Origin: Mesotoga prima MesG1.Ag.4.2
GTDB taxonomy: Bacteria > Thermotogota > Thermotogae > Petrotogales > Kosmotogaceae
Reading direction: 5' to 3'
NCBI RefSeq assembly: GCF_000147715.2
Contig: NC_017934.1
Location: forward strand, 2,232,001 to 2,296,000
DNA: 64,000 bases
The notes below the pieces were generated by a model, which was given only the letters and a program-made list of their open reading frames with translations, made no database searches and was not told the origin of the DNA. This document shows, piece after piece, positions 10,244 through 47,182 of this stretch. Numbering within the stretch: the first letter of the stretch is position 1; every line of letters begins with the position of its first letter. The position numbers were made by a program, and so were the translations under genes.

Positions 10244-11084
10244 CGTAGCCCGCCTCTCTAAGGGATTCAACGGTTTTCATAAAGCTTCTGACGTTGTTTG
10301 GATCAACGGGATTCTTCCAGTTGTTGTCCCTCTTGAAGTAGCTTCCGACGATTGCTCCATCGGCAAACCTAAGAAGTTCACCTACGTTTTCTTTTGTCAA
10401 ACCACTTCCGATCATCACCGGAATGCTTACAGCTTCACTGAAACTCTTTACTTTTTCTGCGTTAGGTGCCTGCCCGGTCTCAAATCCCGTAACGATTAGA
10501 ATTTCTGCCCCTTCCGATTCGGCGTCATGAGCCTGTTCCTCAACACTTCTGTCAGAAATAATGAAATGACTCCCATGTTTCACATTCACATCACACATGA
10601 ACTTAATCTCTTCTGCGCCTATAAGTTTTCTGTATCTAGAAAGCTCTGCCCCGATGCCTTCCGTCAAACCCGCGTGAGAAACATACGCATTGACCCATTC
10701 GAAGATTCTTATCCATTTTGCGCCACCAGCAACTGCGGCGGCGAGTGCTGCCTTTCCTCCATTGAGATGGCAGTTCACACCTACAGGTATATTGACGGCT
10801 TCTCTCACACTTTGAGTCGCTACTGCCAGGGCAGCGGAAGTCTCGTGACCGATCCTTTCCCCTTTGAGATATGGAAAGTCCCAGATGTTTTCAATTTGAA
10901 GTCCATCAACACCACATCCCTCCATAATTCTCGCTTCTTCAATAGCGATCCTGAGAATCTCCTTCATGCCCAGTTTTTCGGGATCGTATCTCGGTGATCC
11001 TGGAAGGGGACGCAGATGTATCATTCCAATAATCGGTTTGCCTTTTTTGAATATGCTGCTTAGAACTTCCCTATCTCTTCTCAC
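10236..11084 (-). CDS. BtpA/SgcQ family TIM-barrel protein
   Basis: A 282-residue cytoplasmic protein of the BtpA family. The family name comes from a cyanobacterial photosystem I biogenesis factor, but most members, such as SgcQ, sit in carbohydrate operons of non-photosynthetic bacteria. Visible family features are GMIHLRPLPGSPRY at the N terminus, DGLQIENIWDFPY, VGVNCHLNGG, KFMCDVNVKHGSH and VMIGSGLTKENV, a phosphate-binding-like barrel end. The start is GTG at 11084 with AGAGGTGG upstream; the overlapping ATG would stop at once. It overlaps rbsK by 8 bases. Its reaction is not established; a sugar-phosphate or nucleoside lyase/aldolase role is only an inference from barrel and context. 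Confidence 0.85.
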   Translation of the reverse strand: MRRDREVLSSIFKKGKPIIGMIHLRPLPGSPRYDPEKLGMKEILRIAIEEARIMEGCGVDGLQIENIWDFPYLKGERIGHETSAALAVATQSVREAVNIPVGVNCHLNGGKAALAAAVAGGAKWIRIFEWVNAYVSHAGLTEGIGAELSRYRKLIGAEEIKFMCDVNVKHGSHFIISDRSVEEQAHDAESEGAEILIVTGFETGQAPNAEKVKSFSEAVSIPVMIGSGLTKENVGELLRFADGAIVGSYFKRDNNWKNPVDPNNVRSFMKTVESLREAGYDD

Positions 11085-11151
11085 ATAACCACCTCTTTTT
11101 CTTTTGGCGCAGATGAAATCGTGATACTTGAACTGAGCCTTTTGCCAAAAT

Positions 11152-11595
11152 CTAGAAATCGACTCCGGAAACCAGGATTATGTTTGCATATGGGGTGAAT
11201 TCCCCAGTCTTAACGAAGACTTTTACCTCTTTGCCCTGAAGACTTCCATTTAAAACGAGATCCTTGAACTCCGGATGAGGAATGTTCTCTTCAATAATGT
11301 CGTTGCCCTTGTTTTTCACTTTAGAGACTATCTCCTTTAGCTGAGAATAGATCTCGGGACTTACTGATCTGGTCTCGTCAGCAATGATTACCTTTTCAAT
11401 CTCGAGCTCTTCAAGAACGACTTTAACGACATCCACGAATCTTGGTAGATTTCTTCCGACTGACACGTCAATGCATACAGTGTTCCCATGCCTAGGAAAG
11501 GGAAAACCTCTATCCGTTATTACCAGCATGTCACCGTGCCCAAGCCTCGCGACTTCTCTCGAAAGATCGTTGTGAAGAATGCCTTTTGTTTTCAT
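11152..11595 (-). CDS. rbsD: D-ribose pyranase
   Basis: A 147-residue member of the RbsD/FucU family, which interconverts pyranose and furanose forms of ribose so that ribokinase receives the right form. The N terminus KTKGILHNDLSREVARLGHGD carries the conserved catalytic His, and LVITDRGFPFP the following strand. Two adjacent ATGs (11598, 11595) are available behind GGAGGTGA; the second aligns with the family and is slightly better spaced. It sits between lacI and the BtpA-like gene. Its presence is the main argument that the transported sugar is ribose. Confidence 0.93.
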   Translation of the reverse strand: MKTKGILHNDLSREVARLGHGDMLVITDRGFPFPRHGNTVCIDVSVGRNLPRFVDVVKVVLEELEIEKVIIADETRSVSPEIYSQLKEIVSKVKNKGNDIIEENIPHPEFKDLVLNGSLQGKEVKVFVKTGEFTPYANIILVSGVDF

Positions 11596-11616
11596 CATTT
11601 CACCTCCAAAGATTTG

Positions 11617-12630
11617 TCAAACTTGCGTTGATTCTCTTACAATAAGATGTGAATCGAGTTCAATCTTTCTTGTGTCGACGTATTCTCCATGTTGCTTCTT
11701 AATAATCTTTTCTAGAAGCAGTTTCATCGCTGTCCGTCCAGCTTCGTACTTAGGTTGATCGACAGTGGTCATTGACGGAATCACCAGCGATGAATACAGA
11801 ACGTTGTCGAAGCCGGCTATGGCGATATCTTCGGGGATTTTCAAACCATTTTGTTTTGCCGCCTCGATCGCTCCCCACGCCATCATGTCGTTTCCAGCAA
11901 AAACGGCTGTAGGCCTTATCTTAAGCTTCAAAATGTATTGCTTCATTATCTTGAAACCATCTTCGTACTTGAAACCACCAAAATAGATCTTCAGGTTTTC
12001 GCCTTTAATACCGTCCTTTTCTAATTCGCTACAAAAGCCTTGAAGCCTCCTGACTGCGCTTGGAACATCTTTAGGACCAGATATACAAGCGAATCTCTTG
12101 TGGCCTTTGTCCAGCAAGTGCCTTGCCAGTTGAGCGGAACCCTTGAAGTTATTCGTGTATACTACATCAATTAACGGGTTTTCTATTTTGAGGTGCCTAT
12201 CGAGGATTACCATAGGCATTCCATTGGAGAGATCGGCTAGAAGCTCCTCATCCATTCTCGGTGCCACATTTATGACACCATCTACTCCATGTCCAAGAAA
12301 AGAAATCAAGGTTTCTTCTTCTCTGTAACTTCTTCCATCACTATTACAAAGAAACATCTGGTAGTCGTGCTCGAGAGCTATGCTCTCTACCCCCCTGGCA
12401 ATCTCGGCGAAGTAGGGGTTTGTTATATCTGGAACCAAGAGACCAACGAGAAAGGACTTTCTGATTTTGAGGCTTCTCGCTATTTTGCTCGGTCTGTACT
12501 GTAAAGCGTCTATAGATTCCAGAACAACTCTCTTTAGCTCCGGGCTGACGTATTTTTTGCCAGACATAACATTTGACACTGTGGCAACCGATACCCCTGC
12601 ACGCTTAGCAACATCTTTCATGTTCGCCAT
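11617..12630 (-). CDS. LacI family transcriptional regulator of the ribose operon
   Basis: A 337-residue repressor. Residues 4-25 are the helix-turn-helix (MKDVAKRAGVSVATVSNVMS), followed by the hinge helix segment YRPSKIARSLK, and then a periplasmic-binding-protein-like effector domain (VGLLVPDITNPYFAEIARG). It is the first gene of the operon, 19 bases ahead of rbsD, and two LacI-type palindromes lie between its start and its promoter. Autorepression of the whole operon, relieved by ribose or a derivative, is expected. RbsR-like in role; the effector is inferred from context. Confidence 0.93.
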   Translation of the reverse strand: MANMKDVAKRAGVSVATVSNVMSGKKYVSPELKRVVLESIDALQYRPSKIARSLKIRKSFLVGLLVPDITNPYFAEIARGVESIALEHDYQMFLCNSDGRSYREEETLISFLGHGVDGVINVAPRMDEELLADLSNGMPMVILDRHLKIENPLIDVVYTNNFKGSAQLARHLLDKGHKRFACISGPKDVPSAVRRLQGFCSELEKDGIKGENLKIYFGGFKYEDGFKIMKQYILKLKIRPTAVFAGNDMMAWGAIEAAKQNGLKIPEDIAIAGFDNVLYSSLVIPSMTTVDQPKYEAGRTAMKLLLEKIIKKQHGEYVDTRKIELDSHLIVRESTQV

Positions 12631-12656
12631 TTAAATCTATCCCCTCTGACCTGCCA

Positions 12657-12682
12657 GTTAAACGTTTAGTTAATCGTTTAAC
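12657..12682. promoter_or_regulatory. Tandem LacI-type operators
   Basis: Two overlapping palindromes centred on CG: TTAAACGTTTA type at 12657-12670 (core TAAACGTTTA is perfect) and GTTAATCGTTTAAC at 12669-12682 (one mismatched pair). Their centres are 12 bp apart. They follow the predicted -10 of the lacI-rbs promoter, so bound repressor would block transcription. Confidence 0.8.
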
Positions 12683-12685
12683 TAC

Positions 12686-12713
12686 AGTGTATCATCATTC
12701 TTTTATTTGCCAA
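12686..12713 (-). promoter_or_regulatory. Promoter of the lacI-rbs operon
   Basis: On the minus strand TTGGCA, 16 bases, TACACT; the tandem operators start four bases downstream of the -10. Moderate matches to the housekeeping consensus. Confidence 0.55.
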
Positions 12714-12995
12714 AACTCGATTTTCTTCGAATGAAGCTGATCATTTTTGCTGAAAGGCAATTAAGTGCTTTTATCTCATCCAATCGCATCCATTTCTGCA
12801 GTCGCGCAGTTCACTTAACGGGCAAATCCATAAGGATAACGGCGAGACGTTTTGGAACAAGTGAGTGCTAATTCCCTTTTCTGTTAAAGATTAGTGAATG
12901 ATCTAGCCGGTTATGCTAGAAAAATATCGATCGTACTATAATGGATGAGATCAAGTTATGCGGTTACTTACTTAAGCATTAACGGAGGTGGTTAT
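12714..12995. other. Intergenic region between the rbs operon and pspC
   Basis: A divergent spacer. A TATAAT on the plus strand at 12937-12942 is a possible -10 for the pspC pair, about 50 bases ahead of the GTG start, but no good -35 is seen. No other structure is recognised. Confidence 0.35.
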
Positions 12996-13439
12996 GTGAG
13001 TGATACGAAGAGGTTATACAAGTCTAGAAAGGACAAAGTAATAGATGGTCTCGCAGGTGGAATAGCAGAGTATCTGGGGGTAGATCCGGTGATTGTAAGG
13101 CTGGTGTTTGTTGCTCTGATCTTCGCAGGTGGTGCCGGATTGATTATATACATAATTGGTATGTTTATAGTACCCAGGGCACCTATCAATAGCGAGAACA
13201 ACGTCGTGATAATGGATGAAGAGGGGAAGCCGATAGAAGAGGGAAAAAAGGAAGAATTCTCTGATAGCAAGAGTAAACTGATCATCGCGGCGCTTCTCAT
13301 AGTATTTGGGATAGCCCTTCTTTTAGGATCGTTTACTCCCTGGAACATTTTCAGCGGTATCTTCTGGAAAACCGTTATAGGTGTTGTATTGATTGCAGGT
13401 GGAGGATTTGTGATCTATAAATCAATAAATAGGGGATGA
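12996..13439 (+). CDS. PspC domain membrane protein
   Basis: A 147-residue protein with an N-terminal PspC domain: KRLYKSRKDKVIDGLAGG, then IAEYLGVDPVIVRLVFVAL and a membrane helix ending in GMFIVPRAP. A charged linker (about residues 65-90) is followed by two further hydrophobic segments (IIAALLIVFGIALLLGSF, VIGVVLIAGGGFVIYK). PspC proteins sense envelope stress in Proteobacteria and act in related phage-shock or Lia-type systems elsewhere. The start is GTG at 12996 behind GGAGGTGG; a longer ATG frame at 12945 lacks a site. The next gene, a LiaF-like protein, follows after four bases. Confidence 0.88.
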   Translation: MSDTKRLYKSRKDKVIDGLAGGIAEYLGVDPVIVRLVFVALIFAGGAGLIIYIIGMFIVPRAPINSENNVVIMDEEGKPIEEGKKEEFSDSKSKLIIAALLIVFGIALLLGSFTPWNIFSGIFWKTVIGVVLIAGGGFVIYKSINRG

Positions 13440-34391: not shown

Positions 34392-36026
34392 TTATTCCGA
34401 AAATTCTATTATTGGGAAAAAGTGTAAGGGATTAGTGAGTTCGTAACTACCGCTGCTGAGATAAGATAAAGTTTCCGCGTTATCAAGAGAGGGGTTCCAG
34501 ACGAGATAATGGTCGGATTCCTGATACCCGTAATAACCAATCAGGTCTCCCTTGTCTATCTCCTCGTTTCCGTTGAAATCTCTCCATACCCTTATCTTTA
34601 TGTAGTTTTCGGTGAGTCCATTGAATTGAAAGGATCCGTCCGGATTGACTTCAGTCTCCCTAATGACTTCGCCCGAGGTGGACAAGATCTGAACCAATAG
34701 TGGCCTGCGTTCTTCCTCGTAGGTAAGAGAATCGTATGCCTGAACTAGTCCGAAGCCATAGTACTCATCCCAGCCACTTTCTCCCAGATCAAGAGCCGTT
34801 TCTCTCAGGATCTTCCTTATTATCTCCTCACCCGAGTCGTCCTTGCCGGCGTATCCTTTTGCCATAAGAAGTGCTGCAAGCCCTGTAACATGTGGCGCCG
34901 CCATGGATGTTCCTTGCATATATGAGTATGTGTTTCCTTCGTCTGTCGAGTATCCGGTACTTAGTATCTGAGCGCTGCTTGAGCCACCAGGGGCGACAAG
35001 GTCGAGATAAACTCCGTAATTCGAGTAGCTTGCCCATCGCATATCATTGTCGACCGCGCCAACTGATATCACTTCATCATATAAAGCCGGATAACGTTGA
35101 TATGGTTTGTTTCCTGAAGCTGCAATCATTAGGACTTCATTTTCTTTAGCATATTTTACAGCTGCAGCAACTACGTCATCATCCCCACCCGCCAGGCTCA
35201 TGTTTATTATCTTTGCGCCGTGCTCAACTGCGAAGATAATGCTGCTAGCGAGTATTCCTGCCGTCGTTTCCCCAGCTTCGAAAATCTTTATTGGCATGAT
35301 AGTGCAATACTCTCCCCATGTCATCCCTGAAACCCCCAGAGAATTATTCGTTTTCGCGGCAATCGTACCTGTAACATGGGTTCCATGGGATTTAACGGGA
35401 TCATAATCTGTAGGGTCATCATCATCGTTTATTAGATCGTATCCCGGAAGAAAGATACCTTCCAAATCTGGATGATCCAGTCTAGCACCAGAGTCTATTA
35501 CTGCGACAACGACAGTGGAAGAACCCTTAGCAATAGTCCAGGCTTGAGGCATCTGGATCATCGGATAGTTCCATTGACCGGAATACAGCGGGTCGTTGGG
35601 GACACTCTCCTCGGATTGAAGAGTGAAGATCTTCTCAGGCTCGACTGACTTGACTCCTTCAATTCCAGACAGCGAAGATGGATCGTTTGTCTTCACAACG
35701 GCATAACCAACAGAACCGTCTCTTGAAAAGAACTCATCGAGGATCTCTACTCCAGAAACGCCCGATATTATTGTTGAATCAAACCCTCTATCGAAGAGGA
35801 CAATAAATTGATTACTCATGAAACCCTGCTCTATGTCTTTACTGGAAAATATGGGAGTGTATGCTGCAGTTCTTTGAAAACTATCGTGAGCTGAGGTTTC
35901 TGGAAAGTAAGGAACGACCTGGCCTGAAAGAGAGTAGTAAACCTCGGGTTTAATGCATCCAGTGAGAGAGAAACAAAGAACAACAAAAAGAGCTGTTATA
36001 AGCGTTAAGACTTTAATAAGCCGCAT
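34392..36026 (-). CDS. Subtilisin-like serine protease, lipoprotein
   Basis: A 544-residue secreted S8 protease. Residues 1-24 form a lipoprotein signal ending in the lipobox LTGC (Cys24). The catalytic triad is Asp178 (VVAVIDSG), His214 (SHGTHVTGTIA) and Ser374 (GTSMAAPHVTGLAAL), with the oxyanion Asn306 in ASGN. Residues 60-140 look like an inhibitor-like propeptide and 440-544 a beta-rich C-terminal domain with DFNGNEEIDKGD, a possible calcium-binding loop. Probably anchored in the envelope and supplying peptides. ATG behind GGAGG. Monocistronic, sharing the terminator with osmC. Confidence 0.95.
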   Translation of the reverse strand: MRLIKVLTLITALFVVLCFSLTGCIKPEVYYSLSGQVVPYFPETSAHDSFQRTAAYTPIFSSKDIEQGFMSNQFIVLFDRGFDSTIISGVSGVEILDEFFSRDGSVGYAVVKTNDPSSLSGIEGVKSVEPEKIFTLQSEESVPNDPLYSGQWNYPMIQMPQAWTIAKGSSTVVVAVIDSGARLDHPDLEGIFLPGYDLINDDDDPTDYDPVKSHGTHVTGTIAAKTNNSLGVSGMTWGEYCTIMPIKIFEAGETTAGILASSIIFAVEHGAKIINMSLAGGDDDVVAAAVKYAKENEVLMIAASGNKPYQRYPALYDEVISVGAVDNDMRWASYSNYGVYLDLVAPGGSSSAQILSTGYSTDEGNTYSYMQGTSMAAPHVTGLAALLMAKGYAGKDDSGEEIIRKILRETALDLGESGWDEYYGFGLVQAYDSLTYEEERRPLLVQILSTSGEVIRETEVNPDGSFQFNGLTENYIKIRVWRDFNGNEEIDKGDLIGYYGYQESDHYLVWNPSLDNAETLSYLSSGSYELTNPLHFFPIIEFSE

Positions 36027-38669: not shown

Positions 38670-39509
38670 ATGGATGAGATTATTGGTTTCATAAGAGATT
38701 CTATTATGAAATATGGTTATAAGGGAGCTGTGATAGGTATTAGCGGAGGAATCGATTCTGCCGTTGTTGGAAAACTCGCCGTCGAAGCTCTTGGAAAGGA
38801 GAAGATATTCGGACTACTCATGCCAGAGCGCGACTCTTCAAGAGATACGATTAGGGATTCGAAGCTCGTCGCGAAGTTTCTTGGGATAGACTTCAAAGTC
38901 AAAAACATAAGCTCTGCTCTTAGAGCAATTGGTACCTATAAGCTTCAGCCTCCCGCATTCTTAATCCCTCAGACAATTAAGGAGAAGTATGTTAAACACA
39001 AGTGGGAGGAGCTGTCTTCTGACCCATTTCTTGACGATCTTTGTAATGAAGGAAACGATGAATTCAGAAGGGGACTGGCCTATTATAGATCGAAGCACAG
39101 AGTAAGGATGATCTCCCTTTACCTTGAAGCTGAAAAACGAGGATACGCGGTGCTGGGAACCACCAACAAGACCGAGCTGTTATGTGGGCTTTATGTGAAA
39201 TGGGGAGACGATTCAAGCGATATTGAGCCAATAAGGCATTTGTTTAAAACCGAAGTAATCGAACTAGCAGGGCAATTGCAAATTCCAAGCAGGATAATAG
39301 AAAAACCTCCAAGTCCAGATCTCATACCTGGTGTTACTGACGAAAATGTTTTTGGAGTGACGATTGACGATCTGGACAAATCTCTTCGGCGTATTGAAGG
39401 AGGAGAAGTTCTAGACCCCCATGATACGAAATCCATGAGGGTCCTGAGAATACTTGAATCAGCCAGGTATCGAGAACTAAGAAATCTAGCTATTTCTAGG
39501 AATCACTAA
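38670..39509 (+). CDS. nadE: NH3-dependent NAD+ synthetase
   Basis: A 279-residue enzyme amidating deamido-NAD with ammonia and ATP, the last step of NAD synthesis. The P-loop GISGGIDSAVVGKLA (SGGxDS) is complete, and GTTNKTELLCGL and KWGDDSSDIEPI follow. No glutaminase domain, so ammonia-dependent. ATG at 38670 preferred over the GTG at 38661, as AGGTGA lies in between. It converges with the next gene, overlapping by 14 bases. Confidence 0.95.
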   Translation: MDEIIGFIRDSIMKYGYKGAVIGISGGIDSAVVGKLAVEALGKEKIFGLLMPERDSSRDTIRDSKLVAKFLGIDFKVKNISSALRAIGTYKLQPPAFLIPQTIKEKYVKHKWEELSSDPFLDDLCNEGNDEFRRGLAYYRSKHRVRMISLYLEAEKRGYAVLGTTNKTELLCGLYVKWGDDSSDIEPIRHLFKTEVIELAGQLQIPSRIIEKPPSPDLIPGVTDENVFGVTIDDLDKSLRRIEGGEVLDPHDTKSMRVLRILESARYRELRNLAISRNH

Positions 39510-40572
39510 GCGTCTTTAGACCGTTGCTCCACGAAATACTCATGAGATTCACAACTACTCGTTCCAGTTGCTGGTCGGCAAATTCCGGAAAGTCTGTGAA
39601 CACTTGTTTTTTTGCCTCTCCCGGTCCGACACTCAATCCCTCAAGTTCTTTTTCTGCAACGTAAAGCTCTTTACCCATAGGATCTATGAGCCTGAACGAT
39701 ATATGAATTCCCTTGATCGTTCCGAGGTCGGAATTGTTCATAATCCGTAGGACAACCGCTTTCTTTTTGCTGAAAGTTCCCACCTTTTCTATGCTCGATT
39801 GAATAACTACTTCGCGATGAAGAGAGTCGGTTGTCTTTCTGTCCTTTGAAAGGTAAAGGTCGGCAGCCTGAGGTATAGAGTCTTCAAGGTCTAGATCCGA
39901 AACAGTGATTTCTTCTCCCAGTGGTTCGGGAAGAGACTCGTTTTTCGTTTCAAAGCTCTCCAATGATTTGTACAGTTGATACAGGTCCCAAAGGTTGTCG
40001 GTGAAGACCCTGTGTTTTCTAAGTTCTTCCACAACTATTCCTGTACTAAGAGAATCTAAGTCGATCTTTGCGTTTTCCCTGCGGATTTTCGCGCCATCCT
40101 GGCCAAAATATACACTGGAAAGAACAAACCATTCATCTGGCAACGGAAAGATCAATCTCCCAGTATGCGCTTCCTTCGAGGAGAACTCTATTGTATTCAC
40201 AATAATTGGAACAACGAAATTCGTATCCCTTTTTGCAGGTATCTTTGACGCTTCTCCATCTGACACAATTCTCAGAGTTTTGCCGAGTGTTCTCGACTCG
40301 AAGGCCCAAAGAGCAACCGAATCTTCAAATAACTTGTCTTCAACTATCTTGACGCCATGAAGCTTAACCCCGCTAAGGTCAAGCTTGCTCTTTGTGAGAG
40401 AGAACTTTGATGATTCCATTTTGACTTCGATAACAGCCATGAGACGGCCCCTGTACTTCGCAAATACTGGATCGGAAGGAAATGTGAGCGTTATTCCGTC
40501 ATGTTTTGATTCCTCAATAATCACTGAACCGGCATCGCTTATAAGAAAAGCCGAGTACCCCATTGTCTTCAT
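39496..40572 (-). CDS. Hypothetical protein, 358 residues
   Basis: No family recognised. No signal peptide or membrane segment is visible. N-terminal 170 residues are beta-rich (SAFLISDAGSVIIEESKHDG, LSLGGV-like strands, FPLPDEWFVLSSVYFGQDGAKI), the centre is acidic (EEITVSDLDLEDSIPQAADL), and the C-terminal 100 residues form another beta-rich unit (AVVLRIMNNSDLGTIKGIHIS) reminiscent of immunoglobulin-like sandwich edges. ATG behind GGGGGAATC. Monocistronic. Cytoplasmic by prediction; real gene because of length, site and base composition. Confidence 0.75.
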   Translation of the reverse strand: MKTMGYSAFLISDAGSVIIEESKHDGITLTFPSDPVFAKYRGRLMAVIEVKMESSKFSLTKSKLDLSGVKLHGVKIVEDKLFEDSVALWAFESRTLGKTLRIVSDGEASKIPAKRDTNFVVPIIVNTIEFSSKEAHTGRLIFPLPDEWFVLSSVYFGQDGAKIRRENAKIDLDSLSTGIVVEELRKHRVFTDNLWDLYQLYKSLESFETKNESLPEPLGEEITVSDLDLEDSIPQAADLYLSKDRKTTDSLHREVVIQSSIEKVGTFSKKKAVVLRIMNNSDLGTIKGIHISFRLIDPMGKELYVAEKELEGLSVGPGEAKKQVFTDFPEFADQQLERVVVNLMSISWSNGLKTLSDS

Positions 40573-41006
40573 GTTGATTCCCCCTTTCTTTTTGCTATCT
40601 CCGATAAAAGCATTATACCTTATACATTCGTCATGTCTTAAGCAAAGTTAACTAAAGGGCAGCTACCGAGTTTTCTCTAGTGAACGCCCTTCCGCCGTGG
40701 TCAAAACTAGGAGAAAACTCGGAAATATAACTGAAAACGGACCTAAATCAGATTTCATCGAAACCAATTGATAATGAGAAAATCACATGAAATGATCTCG
40801 ACGGATTTCTCTTATTGGAACCTGAAAAGAATAAGCTCTTTTCGGCTCCCGAAGCTCTTTTATCTGTAAGTGTTTTGATGAATTGAGAGCCTTCCTCTTA
40901 ACCTCCAGATGTAGCTTTTGAATCGTTGAAGAAAGATAAAGAAAAGGGTTTCCCCCTTTCTTTCGTAGTTTTTCACCTGGATCGTTATAAAAAGTCAGGT
41001 CTTATA
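40573..41006. other. Long intergenic region with a large inverted repeat
   Basis: 434 bases without a convincing gene. It holds the 12-bp inverted repeat at 40666-40722 and a smaller hairpin GAAAAGA/TCTTTTC at 40824-40843. A plus-strand frame here only continues as the antisense of the next gene. Confidence 0.5.
40666..40722. repeat. Inverted repeat with 33-base loop
   Basis: Perfect 12-base arms CCGAGTTTTCTC (40666-40677) and GAGAAAACTCGG (40711-40722), extendable by CTAG with one bulge. The loop contains GC-rich sequence (CGCCCTTCCGCCGTGG). No T-run follows on either strand, so a plain terminator is unlikely. Confidence 0.75.
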
Positions 41007-43457
41007 TCAAGGTTTAGCATCCAACTCGAAATAGAACCCAAAACCAGAGTCGCTGTGCTGAATTCCTATCTTCGGGAAAACATCTCCCAAGCCCAGGGTA
41101 GAACCTACGTTCACAAACATGTACAGCGCAGAGTGATCAAGGCTGGTATTGGTTCCACTAACTTCGACCCCGATCCCAATCTCTTTCAGGAAGAACATGG
41201 GACTCCATCCCCAGTCGATTCGATACAGGAGCTGAGCGCCGTTTGCATACCAGTAAAAATCGTCGAAGAAACCCACACCAAGATTGACAGAAGTCCCCAA
41301 AGTCGGGGCAAAACCGGCATCAAGAGAGAGCAGTGGAGTGATCTCCCCATCAGAGAGTTTTATGCCGGGTTCCAGAGAGATCGCGAAGAGATTTCCTTTC
41401 AAACTCAAAGGAACTGAAGTTGTCATTCCCCCTGATGTGTCAAATCCAATGTGCGCGTATGATCTAAATCTCGTGGAGGGGTTCAAAGGCATCTGGAAGA
41501 GTTCAGAAGATAGCCCTGCAGTTGCCACAGGAACGTTGGGAGTGCCTAAGTTTACTTTCAGAGAGACATTTACTCCTTCCAAGAACTGCCCGGTATACTC
41601 CCCCTGGAAGGAAAGCTTGTTGGTACCAAAAGTGAATAGAGGCTTCAGCTCCATAGAGTGCTTCGAATCATGTGAAAGGTGAACGGTAAGTAATCCTAGG
41701 GAAATGTTTTCGCCATCATATGATACAAACGGCGCTCTTAGGACGGGATTCAAAAAATGAAGGAAGGACTTCTTCAGGTAGTCCCCAACCGTGTACTCTA
41801 CTTGTAAAGGCTCAAAGTCATCAGACTCGACTGCTGTCACGACATATGGGGTACTCTCAAAATCGAAAGCAAAAACAGACATACCCTTTTCTCTACGAGA
41901 GTGTCCGAACCCGTAGACTTTGGAGTCTAAAACGACTGCTTTTTCAAGATTTGCACCGTGAGTAAGCCTAGAGATCTGCAAAGACTCTAAATCTACTGCG
42001 AAGGCATCCATGAACCCTTCCTCATAGGCAGCAGTGAAGACCACTTTGCCTTCATAATAGTCAATCCCTCTTCCTTTTAGGTATGGATCATCGAGAATTA
42101 CTCTGAACTCACCTTCTTTGAAAGTTGCTATGGCTCCATTAATACCGCTGCTGGATAGCATCATTATCAGACTTCCATCTTCAAGGATGAGCATATCTTT
42201 GACAACCCATGGGATTCTGATAAGTTGCATTTCATCAAAAAAGATCGTTGAAATCTCTGTCTTTGCATCATAAACTGCTTTGATCAGTCTTCCGTTGTAG
42301 ATTTCAAATGCGGTAATCATACCTTTGTCGAGAAGTCTAACAGATAGAGGCAGCTTGTGAGACCATATCTCTCTTGACGTTGTGTTTCTTTCAGTAACAG
42401 ACGTCATCAAGTAGATGTTTCCTTCGTGCCATTTCAAAGTCAGTGCTCCAAAATCGGAAAGCCTTCGGGAAAAGCCCCCATCGACGTACTCTTCGATCCC
42501 GCGCTCCACAGAGCCGTTCCAGGAAGTAGCTTCCCCAAAAATCGAATAAGAGAAGATTACACCATTTGCCGTCTTTGCAATATCATAGATCTGCCCGTTC
42601 TCAATTGTCCTGACTTCCGTAAGAGTGGCATACTTTGTTGCTCTCAACTCGGTCTCTTCTTTCCAGTCTAAATAGAGATCGTCGAGAGTTTCACCAAATG
42701 CAATCCTTGAGGCGTTTATGGGACCGATAATGGGAAATCTTCCGGAAACTTCTTTGTGAAATTGCTTAACGGATTCTATTCCAAATCTTTTCACAAGATA
42801 ATCATAGAAAGTGGCCAAATAATTGTAATAAAGCGCCCCTCCTCGGTAATCTTCGCCAGATACGGATAGCGCATAATCAAGACCGGGAAAAGAGTTTGAT
42901 TTCGAATTCTGATAAGTCATTTCCCTTCCCCACATTGGATTGTTCAATCTGCCTTCGGAGAAGAAGTTAGACGATTCTGCAAAAAGCGTCACTCCTTCTA
43001 CGAATGGTGAAAGCTGCTGAGGTGAAAGCATTTCCGTTCCAAAAATCACCCTGGAGACAAAGGCTGGAAAACCCGTTGTGTAGGTCAGGTGAGCAATATG
43101 TGTGAACTCATGCATAAGAAGCAGCCTGTAATGGTTCGATTCATTCATTCTAGTCGAAAGCATTGTATCGGCAGGCCACACGAAGATCTGAATAGTCTTG
43201 TGATTGTGAGGTTGAGCCAGACCGTTTGTGTTCGCTCCGAAGTCGGCTAGAACAATGTTTATCCTGCCAGGATCGTTGCCGATTAGTTCAATGGCTTTTG
43301 ATCTTATCGATTCGAATGTATTACCTACATTAACGGCAACTTCCTCATATCCCTCGGGATAGTAAATGTCAGCATTTGGGAATTCAAGAACACAATTAGC
43401 CATTAAGGTGGCCGTGATAAGAGTGATAATTGCAAAGAATGGTAAAGATTTCCTCAT
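41007..43457 (-). CDS. Secreted HExxH protein with probable propeller and C-terminal barrel
   Basis: An 816-residue protein, exported by a signal peptide at residues 1-21. Residues 100-165 hold a gluzincin-like site: HEFTHIAHL (His116, His120) and 34 residues later PFVEG (Glu154), so a zinc protease of the M1/M61-like or MA-like group. Residues 280-560 contain repeated beta motifs (KTANGVIFSYSIFG, LEDGSLIMMLSSSGING, YYEGKVVFTAAYEEGFMDAF) suggestive of a beta-propeller. Residues 570-816 are alternating short amphipathic strands (LSFQGEYTGQFLEGVNVSLKV, FDTSGGMTTSVPLSLKG, IGIQHSDSGFGFYFELDAKP), like an outer-membrane barrel. ATG behind GGGAGG. Monocistronic. Barrel and protease functions are inferred from pattern only. 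Confidence 0.8.
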   Translation of the reverse strand: MRKSLPFFAIITLITATLMANCVLEFPNADIYYPEGYEEVAVNVGNTFESIRSKAIELIGNDPGRINIVLADFGANTNGLAQPHNHKTIQIFVWPADTMLSTRMNESNHYRLLLMHEFTHIAHLTYTTGFPAFVSRVIFGTEMLSPQQLSPFVEGVTLFAESSNFFSEGRLNNPMWGREMTYQNSKSNSFPGLDYALSVSGEDYRGGALYYNYLATFYDYLVKRFGIESVKQFHKEVSGRFPIIGPINASRIAFGETLDDLYLDWKEETELRATKYATLTEVRTIENGQIYDIAKTANGVIFSYSIFGEATSWNGSVERGIEEYVDGGFSRRLSDFGALTLKWHEGNIYLMTSVTERNTTSREIWSHKLPLSVRLLDKGMITAFEIYNGRLIKAVYDAKTEISTIFFDEMQLIRIPWVVKDMLILEDGSLIMMLSSSGINGAIATFKEGEFRVILDDPYLKGRGIDYYEGKVVFTAAYEEGFMDAFAVDLESLQISRLTHGANLEKAVVLDSKVYGFGHSRREKGMSVFAFDFESTPYVVTAVESDDFEPLQVEYTVGDYLKKSFLHFLNPVLRAPFVSYDGENISLGLLTVHLSHDSKHSMELKPLFTFGTNKLSFQGEYTGQFLEGVNVSLKVNLGTPNVPVATAGLSSELFQMPLNPSTRFRSYAHIGFDTSGGMTTSVPLSLKGNLFAISLEPGIKLSDGEITPLLSLDAGFAPTLGTSVNLGVGFFDDFYWYANGAQLLYRIDWGWSPMFFLKEIGIGVEVSGTNTSLDHSALYMFVNVGSTLGLGDVFPKIGIQHSDSGFGFYFELDAKP

Positions 43458-43510
43458 TTTATACCTCCCGCCTCAGACCATCGATGAAGGGACTATTCCC
43501 CAAGATGAAG

Positions 43511-43972
43511 CTACAAACCAAACGTCTCCTCAAAAACGCGTTTAACCTTTCTTTCATTCAAATCCGTTCTGAAAGTCAGCTTAATCTTGCCTTCATTCCA
43601 TACGATTTTGATTACTGTGCTATCGGAAGAAGTTCCCTGAGAAGAATTCGTATTGCTGGAGACCTTGATTTTTCTGAGTGATTCTTTTGGAATAAAGAGA
43701 TTACCAGGTGTTTCATTCAAGATCTCCTCTTTTGTCTTCTCGTTGTATCTGTCAAGCAGGGAATAGCCTGACGACATCACAGATGCCATCTTCTTAAAGA
43801 ACCCTTCCTTCCGCTCTTCAGAGGCATCCTTTGCTTTTTTAATGGCTTCATTCGTTAGTTCTCTGGTCAACTGCACCAACATGATTCCCTCTGGAATTAA
43901 AACAACATCGTACACCTTACTTCCAAAGAGTCCTGTAGAGCCCCCGGGAAAAAGCGCCAAAACGTTGTCCAT
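43511..43972 (-). CDS. Hypothetical protein, 153 residues
   Basis: A cytoplasmic protein with no recognised family. It starts MDNVLALFPGGSTGLFGSKV, has an alpha-helical charged middle (AIKKAKDASEERKEGFFKK) and a C-terminal beta part (STVIKIVWNEGKIKLTFRTD), resembling a small PH-like unit. The ATG at 43972 has GGAGGG upstream; the longer frame to 43987 is not used. Single gene between the HExxH protein and dat. Confidence 0.7.
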   Translation of the reverse strand: MDNVLALFPGGSTGLFGSKVYDVVLIPEGIMLVQLTRELTNEAIKKAKDASEERKEGFFKKMASVMSSGYSLLDRYNEKTKEEILNETPGNLFIPKESLRKIKVSSNTNSSQGTSSDSTVIKIVWNEGKIKLTFRTDLNERKVKRVFEETFGL

Positions 43973-44107
43973 AAAGAAACCCTCCAAATGAAAAGTCTGC
44001 TTACAGTTACGTTATATTCTAACACTGATGAGCTGTCTTACCGCAAATCGATAGCCAGTTTGATGCATAATATTGTTGCAGAGACTCAAAAACCCAAGGA
44101 GGTTTCT

Positions 44108-45094: not shown

Positions 45095-47182
45095 ATGAAG
45101 AAACTCTTTGTCTGTATGCTCGTTCTTTTTTTCTCGGGTCTGTCTTTGGCGCAGATTTCCGCAGAAGAAGCGATACCAGTAATTGAATCTAGAGGGATTT
45201 TGACTTCAGTTGACGAGTCACCACTAACTTTCACAGAGTTTAAGGCGGCTATTGAAAAGGCCTTCCCTGGTAAGGAAGAAATCATTAAGGGGAAGGGTGA
45301 AGTTTCAAGAGCGGATTTTGCAGTTGCAATGGTTGAAGTTCTTGGACTGCAGTCCGAAGCAGAGGCATTTGACGAGATTTGTACGACTGCTCTCGATGAG
45401 TGGGAAGCTCCGGAGGAAGCTTGGGGAGCGCTTACCGTTGCTTACAGAAGCAACCGCCAGCTTCTTGACTTCAGGTACGGCCATGTGATCGAGGCCAGTT
45501 CGCCAATCACTAGGAAAGAGGCGGCAATATCCATTTATATGGCAATAAATCCACCCGCGAAGGGTGGTACGGCCACTACAGCTGTTACTGCAGATGCGCC
45601 CGGTTTCAACACGCTGTTTACTTCTGCGGGTTTGACATGGACAATCTGTAATATCATCGGCGATGGAGTCACCGGCACAGATAAGGATGGGTTCTATTTC
45701 CCCAGGATGATAAAGAGAATGCCGTCTCTTGAGAACGGTCTAATGGTAATAAATGAAGATGGTTCTCTCACCATAACTTATGAACTGAGAAAGGGTATGA
45801 AGTGGCATGATGGAGAACCCGTTACTGCTCACGATGCGAAATTCCAGTGGGAAGTAATGAACAGTGGTGCTCCTGTTACGACGAACTACTTCGAAAGTTC
45901 CGTTTCGGAAGTAGAAGTTATCGACGATTACACATACTCTATCACTCTTCCAGAACCTCTGAGTAATGCAGAGCTAGGTTCTTCTGTTTACGCTTACTAC
46001 TTTGGATGGTTCCAACTCCCCGAACACGTTTTCAGAGATAGTTACGAGGAAGCGAAGCATTCTGGAAGCTGGGACAGTTTCGTGGAAAATGCGACAAAGA
46101 ATCCGATTATGACAGGACCGTACAAGCTAAAAGAATACGTGGAAGGCCAGTATGTGATAATGGAAGCTTTTGATGAGTACTACATGGATAGACCGAACAT
46201 CGACCAGTTGGTTATGAGAATTATTCCAGACATGGATGTCGTATTCGCATCCACACTTAATGGGGAAATCGATTTCGGAAGATACACTCTAACTCTAAAA
46301 CAATCAGTGCAGCTTGAGAATGAACGAGCAGATATGTTCAACGTTTTCTACACACCAAACATTGCTTATGATAACCTGAATCTGAATTTGAGAGATCCAG
46401 AGGATACATCTAAGCCACATCCGATCTTTGGAGACAAGAGAGTAAGGCAGGCCGTTCTCTATGGTCTAAATAGAGAACAGATAAGCAATGTAGTCTACGC
46501 AGGCCTTGCCGAAGTCGTAGATACCTGGATAACCGATCTGCACCAGATGAGAGATGCTCTCAAGAGCCCGGAGGTTAAGCACTACGAGTACAACCCCGCG
46601 AAAGCCAAAGCTCTTCTCGAAGAGGCAGGCTGGAAGCTTAACAGTAAAGGCATATACGAAAAGGACGGAACGCCTCTGAAGTTTAGCCTTTCTCTCGCCT
46701 CTGGCAGCGGCGATTACCAGATGATGGCCCAGATGATCCAGGGAATGTTGAAGCAAATTGGAATGGAAGTAGAAATTGAGGTGATGCCAGCGCTGGTAAT
46801 CTGGACCGAGATATTCCCCTATGGGGATTTTGATGCACATATCTCAGGCTGGGGGTATGGAGTCAGCGACGAAGCGGCGAATTATTGGACCACTGATCAG
46901 ATACCCTCTGAAGAGAATTATTGGGGAGGAATGAACTTCACCGGCTGGGCAAATGCGGAAAACGATGAAATAGTCAACGCAGCCGCCAGGGAGCTCGATC
47001 CGGAAAAGAAGCTGGCACTCTATGAAAAGCACTTCGCGCTTTGGACCGAGGAACTCCCTGTTCTGCCCCTGGTTGTTGCGCCGACACCCCATTTTGCAAA
47101 GAAATACATTAAGAGCTTCAATTCCGGCTACGACAACGGTTTGGGCTGGATAATTCAGAACTGGTACATTGACGAGCAATAA
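45095..47182 (+). CDS. Oligopeptide ABC transporter substrate-binding protein with N-terminal SLH-like region
   Basis: A 695-residue secreted protein. Signal peptide 1-19. Residues 20-150 resemble S-layer homology (SLH) repeats: VSRADFAVAMVEVLGL, then EAWGALTVAYRSNRQLLDF, then ITRKEAAISIYMAINP. Residues 155-695 are a family 5 (OppA/DppA) binding protein: PSLENGLMVINEDGSLTITY, YELRKGMKWHDGEPVTAHD and PIMTGPYKLKEYVEGQ are family stretches, and RVRQAVLYGLNREQI as well. SLH domains bind cell-wall polymers, so the receptor may be anchored to the wall or the toga. ATG behind TTGGAGGTG. First gene of a six-gene peptide-uptake operon. Confidence 0.9.
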   Translation: MKKLFVCMLVLFFSGLSLAQISAEEAIPVIESRGILTSVDESPLTFTEFKAAIEKAFPGKEEIIKGKGEVSRADFAVAMVEVLGLQSEAEAFDEICTTALDEWEAPEEAWGALTVAYRSNRQLLDFRYGHVIEASSPITRKEAAISIYMAINPPAKGGTATTAVTADAPGFNTLFTSAGLTWTICNIIGDGVTGTDKDGFYFPRMIKRMPSLENGLMVINEDGSLTITYELRKGMKWHDGEPVTAHDAKFQWEVMNSGAPVTTNYFESSVSEVEVIDDYTYSITLPEPLSNAELGSSVYAYYFGWFQLPEHVFRDSYEEAKHSGSWDSFVENATKNPIMTGPYKLKEYVEGQYVIMEAFDEYYMDRPNIDQLVMRIIPDMDVVFASTLNGEIDFGRYTLTLKQSVQLENERADMFNVFYTPNIAYDNLNLNLRDPEDTSKPHPIFGDKRVRQAVLYGLNREQISNVVYAGLAEVVDTWITDLHQMRDALKSPEVKHYEYNPAKAKALLEEAGWKLNSKGIYEKDGTPLKFSLSLASGSGDYQMMAQMIQGMLKQIGMEVEIEVMPALVIWTEIFPYGDFDAHISGWGYGVSDEAANYWTTDQIPSEENYWGGMNFTGWANAENDEIVNAAARELDPEKKLALYEKHFALWTEELPVLPLVVAPTPHFAKKYIKSFNSGYDNGLGWIIQNWYIDEQ

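Follow-up and report, generated by a model that had tools for sequence, protein, structure and literature searches.

The toga is a hallmark of the Thermotogota. Elsewhere, outer-membrane proteins such as TamA, BamA, PelB and BcsC hold their extra N-terminal domains in the periplasm, and a C-terminal barrel with an even number of strands normally has both of its ends there; proteins of a similar make-up, with peptidase, propeller and barrel in one chain, may be annotated in other phyla. In the toga itself, OmpB, which is the barrel-forming toga porin, and OmpA1 are integral proteins (Thermotoga maritima TM0476, TM0477); in the literature consulted these are the only toga structural proteins that have been characterised, and a few enzymes have been assigned to the structure (PMC3387000), in agreement with a first-pass annotation of the present locus, which remarked on how few integral proteins of the outer sheath are known.

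Here we describe an 816-residue ORF that runs from ATG to stop at positions 41007–43457, on the minus strand (43457–41007), of a 64,000-nucleotide stretch of the Mesotoga genome (hereafter the window). A limited literature search found no description of the family to which it belongs, or of its combination of peptidase, propeller and barrel; both are described here from a survey of 103 Thermotogota genomes.

Architecture of the 816-residue chain

The first-pass annotation had placed this ORF correctly, whilst giving no strand, and had read it as an exported three-part chain with a gluzincin site, a beta-propeller-like middle and a probable outer-membrane barrel, for which it proposed structure prediction. 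Modelled at full length with 26 homologues (AlphaFold2; mean pLDDT 86.2, pTM 0.87), the chain forms an HExxH metallopeptidase, then a six-bladed propeller and then a C-terminal barrel of ~16 strands, and all three of the named parts thus appear. Together with homologues of similar length across the phylum, the model confirms the three-part ORF, and because such homologues occur throughout the Thermotogota the reading frame is conserved rather than due to chance. The features of the gene and its product are as follows.

43464–43469, minus strand: Shine–Dalgarno-like GGGAGG, 6 nt 5' of the ATG (sequence)
43398–43457, minus strand: predicted signal peptide, residues 1 to ~20 (MRKSLPFFAIITLITATLMA; sequence, putative cleavage site)
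42633–43397, minus strand: predicted metallopeptidase domain, residues 21–275 (AlphaFold2; Foldseek matches to M1 aminopeptidases; weak Peptidase_MA_2 matches in homologues)
43098–43112, minus strand: HEFTH, residues 116–120 (H116, E117 and H120 invariant in both alignments, of 26 and 30 homologues)
42996–42998, minus strand: E154 (in FVEGVTLFAES), putative third zinc ligand (invariant in 26 and 30 homologues)
42825–42827, minus strand: Y211, putative transition-state tyrosine (invariant in 30 homologues)
41838–42632, minus strand: predicted beta-propeller, residues 276–540, 24 strands, read as six blades (AlphaFold2; Foldseek; profile)
41751–41780, minus strand: predicted linker helix, residues 560–569, directly before the barrel (AlphaFold2)
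41013–41747, minus strand: predicted outer-membrane beta-barrel, residues 571–815, ~16 strands (AlphaFold2, both at full length and for the isolated domain; Foldseek; amphipathicity)
40938–40963, minus strand: terminator-like hairpin 3' of the stop (hairpin scan, with 8 hairpins in the region against 3.6 expected in shuffles)

Within the signal peptide the model places a helix at residues 5–18, with low confidence, and the N-termini of the homologues are likewise hydrophobic. When the full model was compared with the PDB by Foldseek, matches were obtained to the puromycin hydrolase propeller, to M1 aminopeptidases (e.g. ERAP2) and to membrane barrels (ushers, LptD and porins); TM-scores were low, as is to be expected for a three-part query set against single-domain or differently arranged chains, and the matches serve as leads to domain types only. 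Each of the three domains is of a known fold class. At the sequence level, the 816-residue protein had no match in Pfam, NCBIfam, PHROGs or the PDB sequences, nor did a 26-row family profile match any PDB sequence; a broader 30-row profile matched TolB and PH0594.

Residues 21–275 are mostly helical in the model and contain the HEFTH motif, and an HExxH was found in all homologues examined. By comparison with Peptidase_MA_2 relatives, E154 would provide the third zinc ligand, and by analogy to M1 enzymes Y211 would act as the catalytic (transition-state) tyrosine. The 816-residue protein did not reach the cut-off for Peptidase_MA_2 (PF13485) and gave no match; a second family member in the same genome scored 24.6 bits, below the cut-off of 32.4, and 6 of 30 homologues matched at E ≤ 0.01 (best 3e-7). 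The gluzincin site of the first-pass annotation, HEFTH with E154 as its distant Glu, is therefore supported by conservation and by structure prediction, and from the sequence we infer that the protein binds zinc and has peptidase activity.

Across the 30 divergent homologues, the invariant residues are H116, E117, H120, E154, R170 and Y211, as well as N78 and P576; H123 is invariant among the closer homologues only. This conservation bears on a different account, according to which the protein would be an outer-membrane channel or transporter whose peptidase-like domain is inactive and serves for binding only. The likeness of the barrel to porins and export channels would fit such a role; however, had the domain lost its activity, the first six of these residues should have been free to change, and we regard this account as improbable.

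The 24 strands of the propeller lie at residues 280–532 of the model, and their assignment to six blades was made by counting strands, not from coordinates. Foldseek matched this part to puromycin hydrolase and to the YWTD propellers of LDLR, and fold matches and model together bear out the propeller-like middle. No PD40 repeat was recognised in the 816-residue protein, whilst 4 of the 30 homologues match PD40 and the 30-row profile, as stated, matches TolB.

The predicted C-terminal barrel and its probable orientation

Folded alone, the C-terminal 265 residues yielded the same strands as the full chain (pLDDT 81.5). Among the matches listed by Foldseek for this domain against the PDB, 50 of 50 were membrane barrels, including PelB, the R. 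blastica porin (TM 0.50), TamA, MOMP, OprD, AlgE, KdgM, VDAC, BamA and BcsC, with modest E-values (~1e-3 to 3e-2) and TM-scores of ~0.5; closure of the barrel is predicted from these fold matches. Moreover, hydrophobic and polar residues alternate along the barrel strands (z 6.7 versus shuffled order, with 0 of 5000 shuffles as high), whereas the strands of its propeller gave a z of −0.7 in the same test. Charged residues make up 2 % of the hydrophobic face of the barrel strands and 22 % of the other face. The C-terminal part is as such predicted to comprise ~16 amphipathic strands, in line with its first reading as a probable outer-membrane barrel, and not a non-barrel domain.

It could be argued that the beta-structure of this part is soluble and that the protein is a protease of the usual kind, secreted or periplasmic, given that sequence profiles recognise no barrel family. 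Against this stand the fold matches, membrane barrels without exception among those listed, and the near lack of charge on the hydrophobic face, which together make a soluble C-terminal part very improbable. Many outer-membrane proteins end in Phe; the present chain ends in FYFELDAKP, the last residue of which is not aromatic, and among 30 homologues 11 end in F and three in Y. Omp85 and POTRA matches in the same genome represent the barrel assembly machinery.

With ~16 strands at the C-terminus, and with the N-terminal domains of the nearest structural matches lying in the periplasm, we favour by analogy a periplasmic position for the N-terminal domains, such that the protease would face the space under the toga rather than the surface. 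As strand 678–687 is broken in the model, which leaves 15 or 16 strands, a 15-stranded barrel with the opposite orientation is possible. Length differences fell at both odd and even barrel loops in the raw alignment, and loop lengths in a restricted profile alignment (9.4 for odd and 5.1 for even loops, against as much as 19.8 for shifted controls) do not separate the cases; the orientation favoured here does not draw on them.

The first-pass annotation had envisaged a self-anchored surface protease. Its barrel anchor is upheld by prediction; its surface location is not, since ~16 strands predict periplasmic N-terminal domains and no export through the barrel is indicated. For the peptidase to feed on external protein, the N-terminal domains would have to cross the membrane by way of the barrel or next to it, in the manner of autotransporters, or the number of strands would have to be odd. 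The broken strand would allow the latter, autotransporter-type secretion offers precedents for N-terminal enzymes, and in Mesotoga the gene adjoins an operon for peptide uptake that includes an M14 carboxypeptidase. However, no autotransporter domain was found in Pfam, the barrel is not of the 12-strand kind, and the family occurs in nearly all Thermotogota whilst its linkage to the uptake genes is confined to Mesotoga. We consider a surface protease rather unlikely, and favour the periplasmic arrangement.

Distribution and genomic setting

A search with the single sequence gave matches in 49 of the 103 Thermotogota genomes, a 26-row profile in 77 and a 30-row profile in 100; in 98 of these last the match was stronger than 1e-50, and the remaining two look propeller-only. 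The protein, held to be unusual in the first-pass annotation, is thus no oddity of one genome, but belongs to a family that is near-universal in the phylum (98 of 103 genomes). Most genomes carry one copy, of ~800–900 residues, and this near-universal, mostly single-copy presence accords with a housekeeping role and suggests envelope processing or quality control. A single-sequence scan of contigs returned only close relatives (the nearest named ones being a Kosmotogaceae MAG at 92 % and a Mesotoga MAG at 83 %), and the closest of the other genomes likewise belong to Mesotoga.

The family tree, which was midpoint-rooted for drawing only and does not separate duplication from transfer, contains two well-supported clades, and Mesotoga has one copy from each. 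The clade of the 816-residue protein comprises sequences from Mesotoga, from a second genus of the same family and from members of families f5, f9, f10 and f11; its own-genome paralogue of 833 aa (G000:C1:1629159-1631615; L045:1127-3628) falls in the other clade with families f2, f7 and f8 and one f10 genome. This paralogue carries HELTH and ends in PYLDFELIY.

Several further copies were observed during the survey. One genome (G070) holds two in near-tandem (L082:5217-7847 and 10450-13128), and another retains a longer copy beside a short one of ~200 aa with an internal TAG (G059:C9:85186-85812), which is apparently decayed. A contig filed as a Bacteroidales MAG (L003) is probably misbinned: the family member on it shares 97 % identity with the Mesotoga protein. 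Apart from these copies, the genome that carries the 816-residue ORF also encodes a lipoprotein-like chain of 1442 residues (L090:801-5129), which has HEFQHMVNYNR near its C-terminal end and is a further possible metallopeptidase.

In Mesotoga, the neighbourhood of the 816-residue gene includes a subtilase, a gamma-glutamyltranspeptidase, an M14 peptidase and a peptide transporter. The subtilase (PF00082; window positions 34392–36026) has a lipoprotein-like signal (LTGC) and is a second exported protease nearby. At 45095–47182, adjoining the M14 peptidase and peptide transporter genes, lies a family 5 solute-binding protein, extended at its N-terminus by ~220 residues of S-layer-homology-like appearance. 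The flanking proteins at 39496–40572 (358 aa) and 43511–43987 (158 aa) have no Pfam match, and among the loci compared their relatives were found only in another Mesotoga. A search of the family loci for a conserved neighbour or operon partner found none beyond Mesotoga, and nothing thus points to an operon devoted to a particular substrate; the peptidase and transporter neighbours in Mesotoga leave room for a feeding role.

A putative toga protease and its known counterparts

An exported three-part chain with a conserved site, a barrel fold and phylum-wide presence is supported by prediction and conservation. On balance, we interpret the protein as a toga outer-membrane protein that brings its own protease, most likely periplasmic and likely to serve envelope-protein processing or quality control. 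According to this model, Sec would export the chain and the cell's BamA-type machinery would fold the C-terminal barrel into the outer membrane, leaving both soluble parts, the N-terminal zinc peptidase and the propeller, tethered at the barrel mouth, most likely on its periplasmic face. The HExxH and E154 would hold a zinc ion, the peptidase would cleave peptides or unfolded proteins, and the propeller might form a docking surface or a gate; the likely task would be to process envelope proteins under the toga or to control their quality. The zinc, the activity, the orientation and the substrate in this model are those that we infer for the 816-residue protein.

A bolder suggestion, which we advance tentatively, is that the protease belongs to the core apparatus by which the toga is made or maintained, where it might, for instance, trim envelope proteins at the inner face of the toga, and that alongside OmpA and OmpB it is a toga protein that defines the phylum. 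The family in any case offers a candidate, near-universal in the phylum, for an integral protein of the toga with a predicted enzymatic site, and raises the question of whether proteins are processed at the outer membrane as part of toga building or of feeding.

Compared with known systems, OmpB and OmpA1 have no enzyme domain and were characterised in toga fractions, whereas the present family is a predicted toga family. With Peptidase_MA_2 (PF13485) and the M1 gluzincins, the 816-residue protein shares a helical fold and an HExxH followed by a Glu 34 residues downstream in a conserved EG..ES stretch, and the M1 enzymes ERAP2, ERAP1 and IRAP were among the Foldseek matches; unlike them, it lacks a family match and continues into a propeller and a barrel. 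Its propeller resembles those of TolB and the S9 peptidases (PD40, DPPIV_N) by 30-row profile (TolB, PH0594) and by fold (puromycin hydrolase), but has no recognisable PD40 repeat and joins a metallopeptidase to a barrel. Like the autotransporter proteases (type V), it combines an enzyme and a C-terminal barrel in one chain, although with a predicted zinc rather than a serine site, ~16 rather than 12 strands and no PF03797 match. Finally, whilst it has no Omp85 match, it resembles TamA, BamA, PelB and BcsC in setting a C-terminal barrel of ~16 strands behind soluble N-terminal domains, with a peptidase and a propeller in the place of their POTRA or TPR domains.
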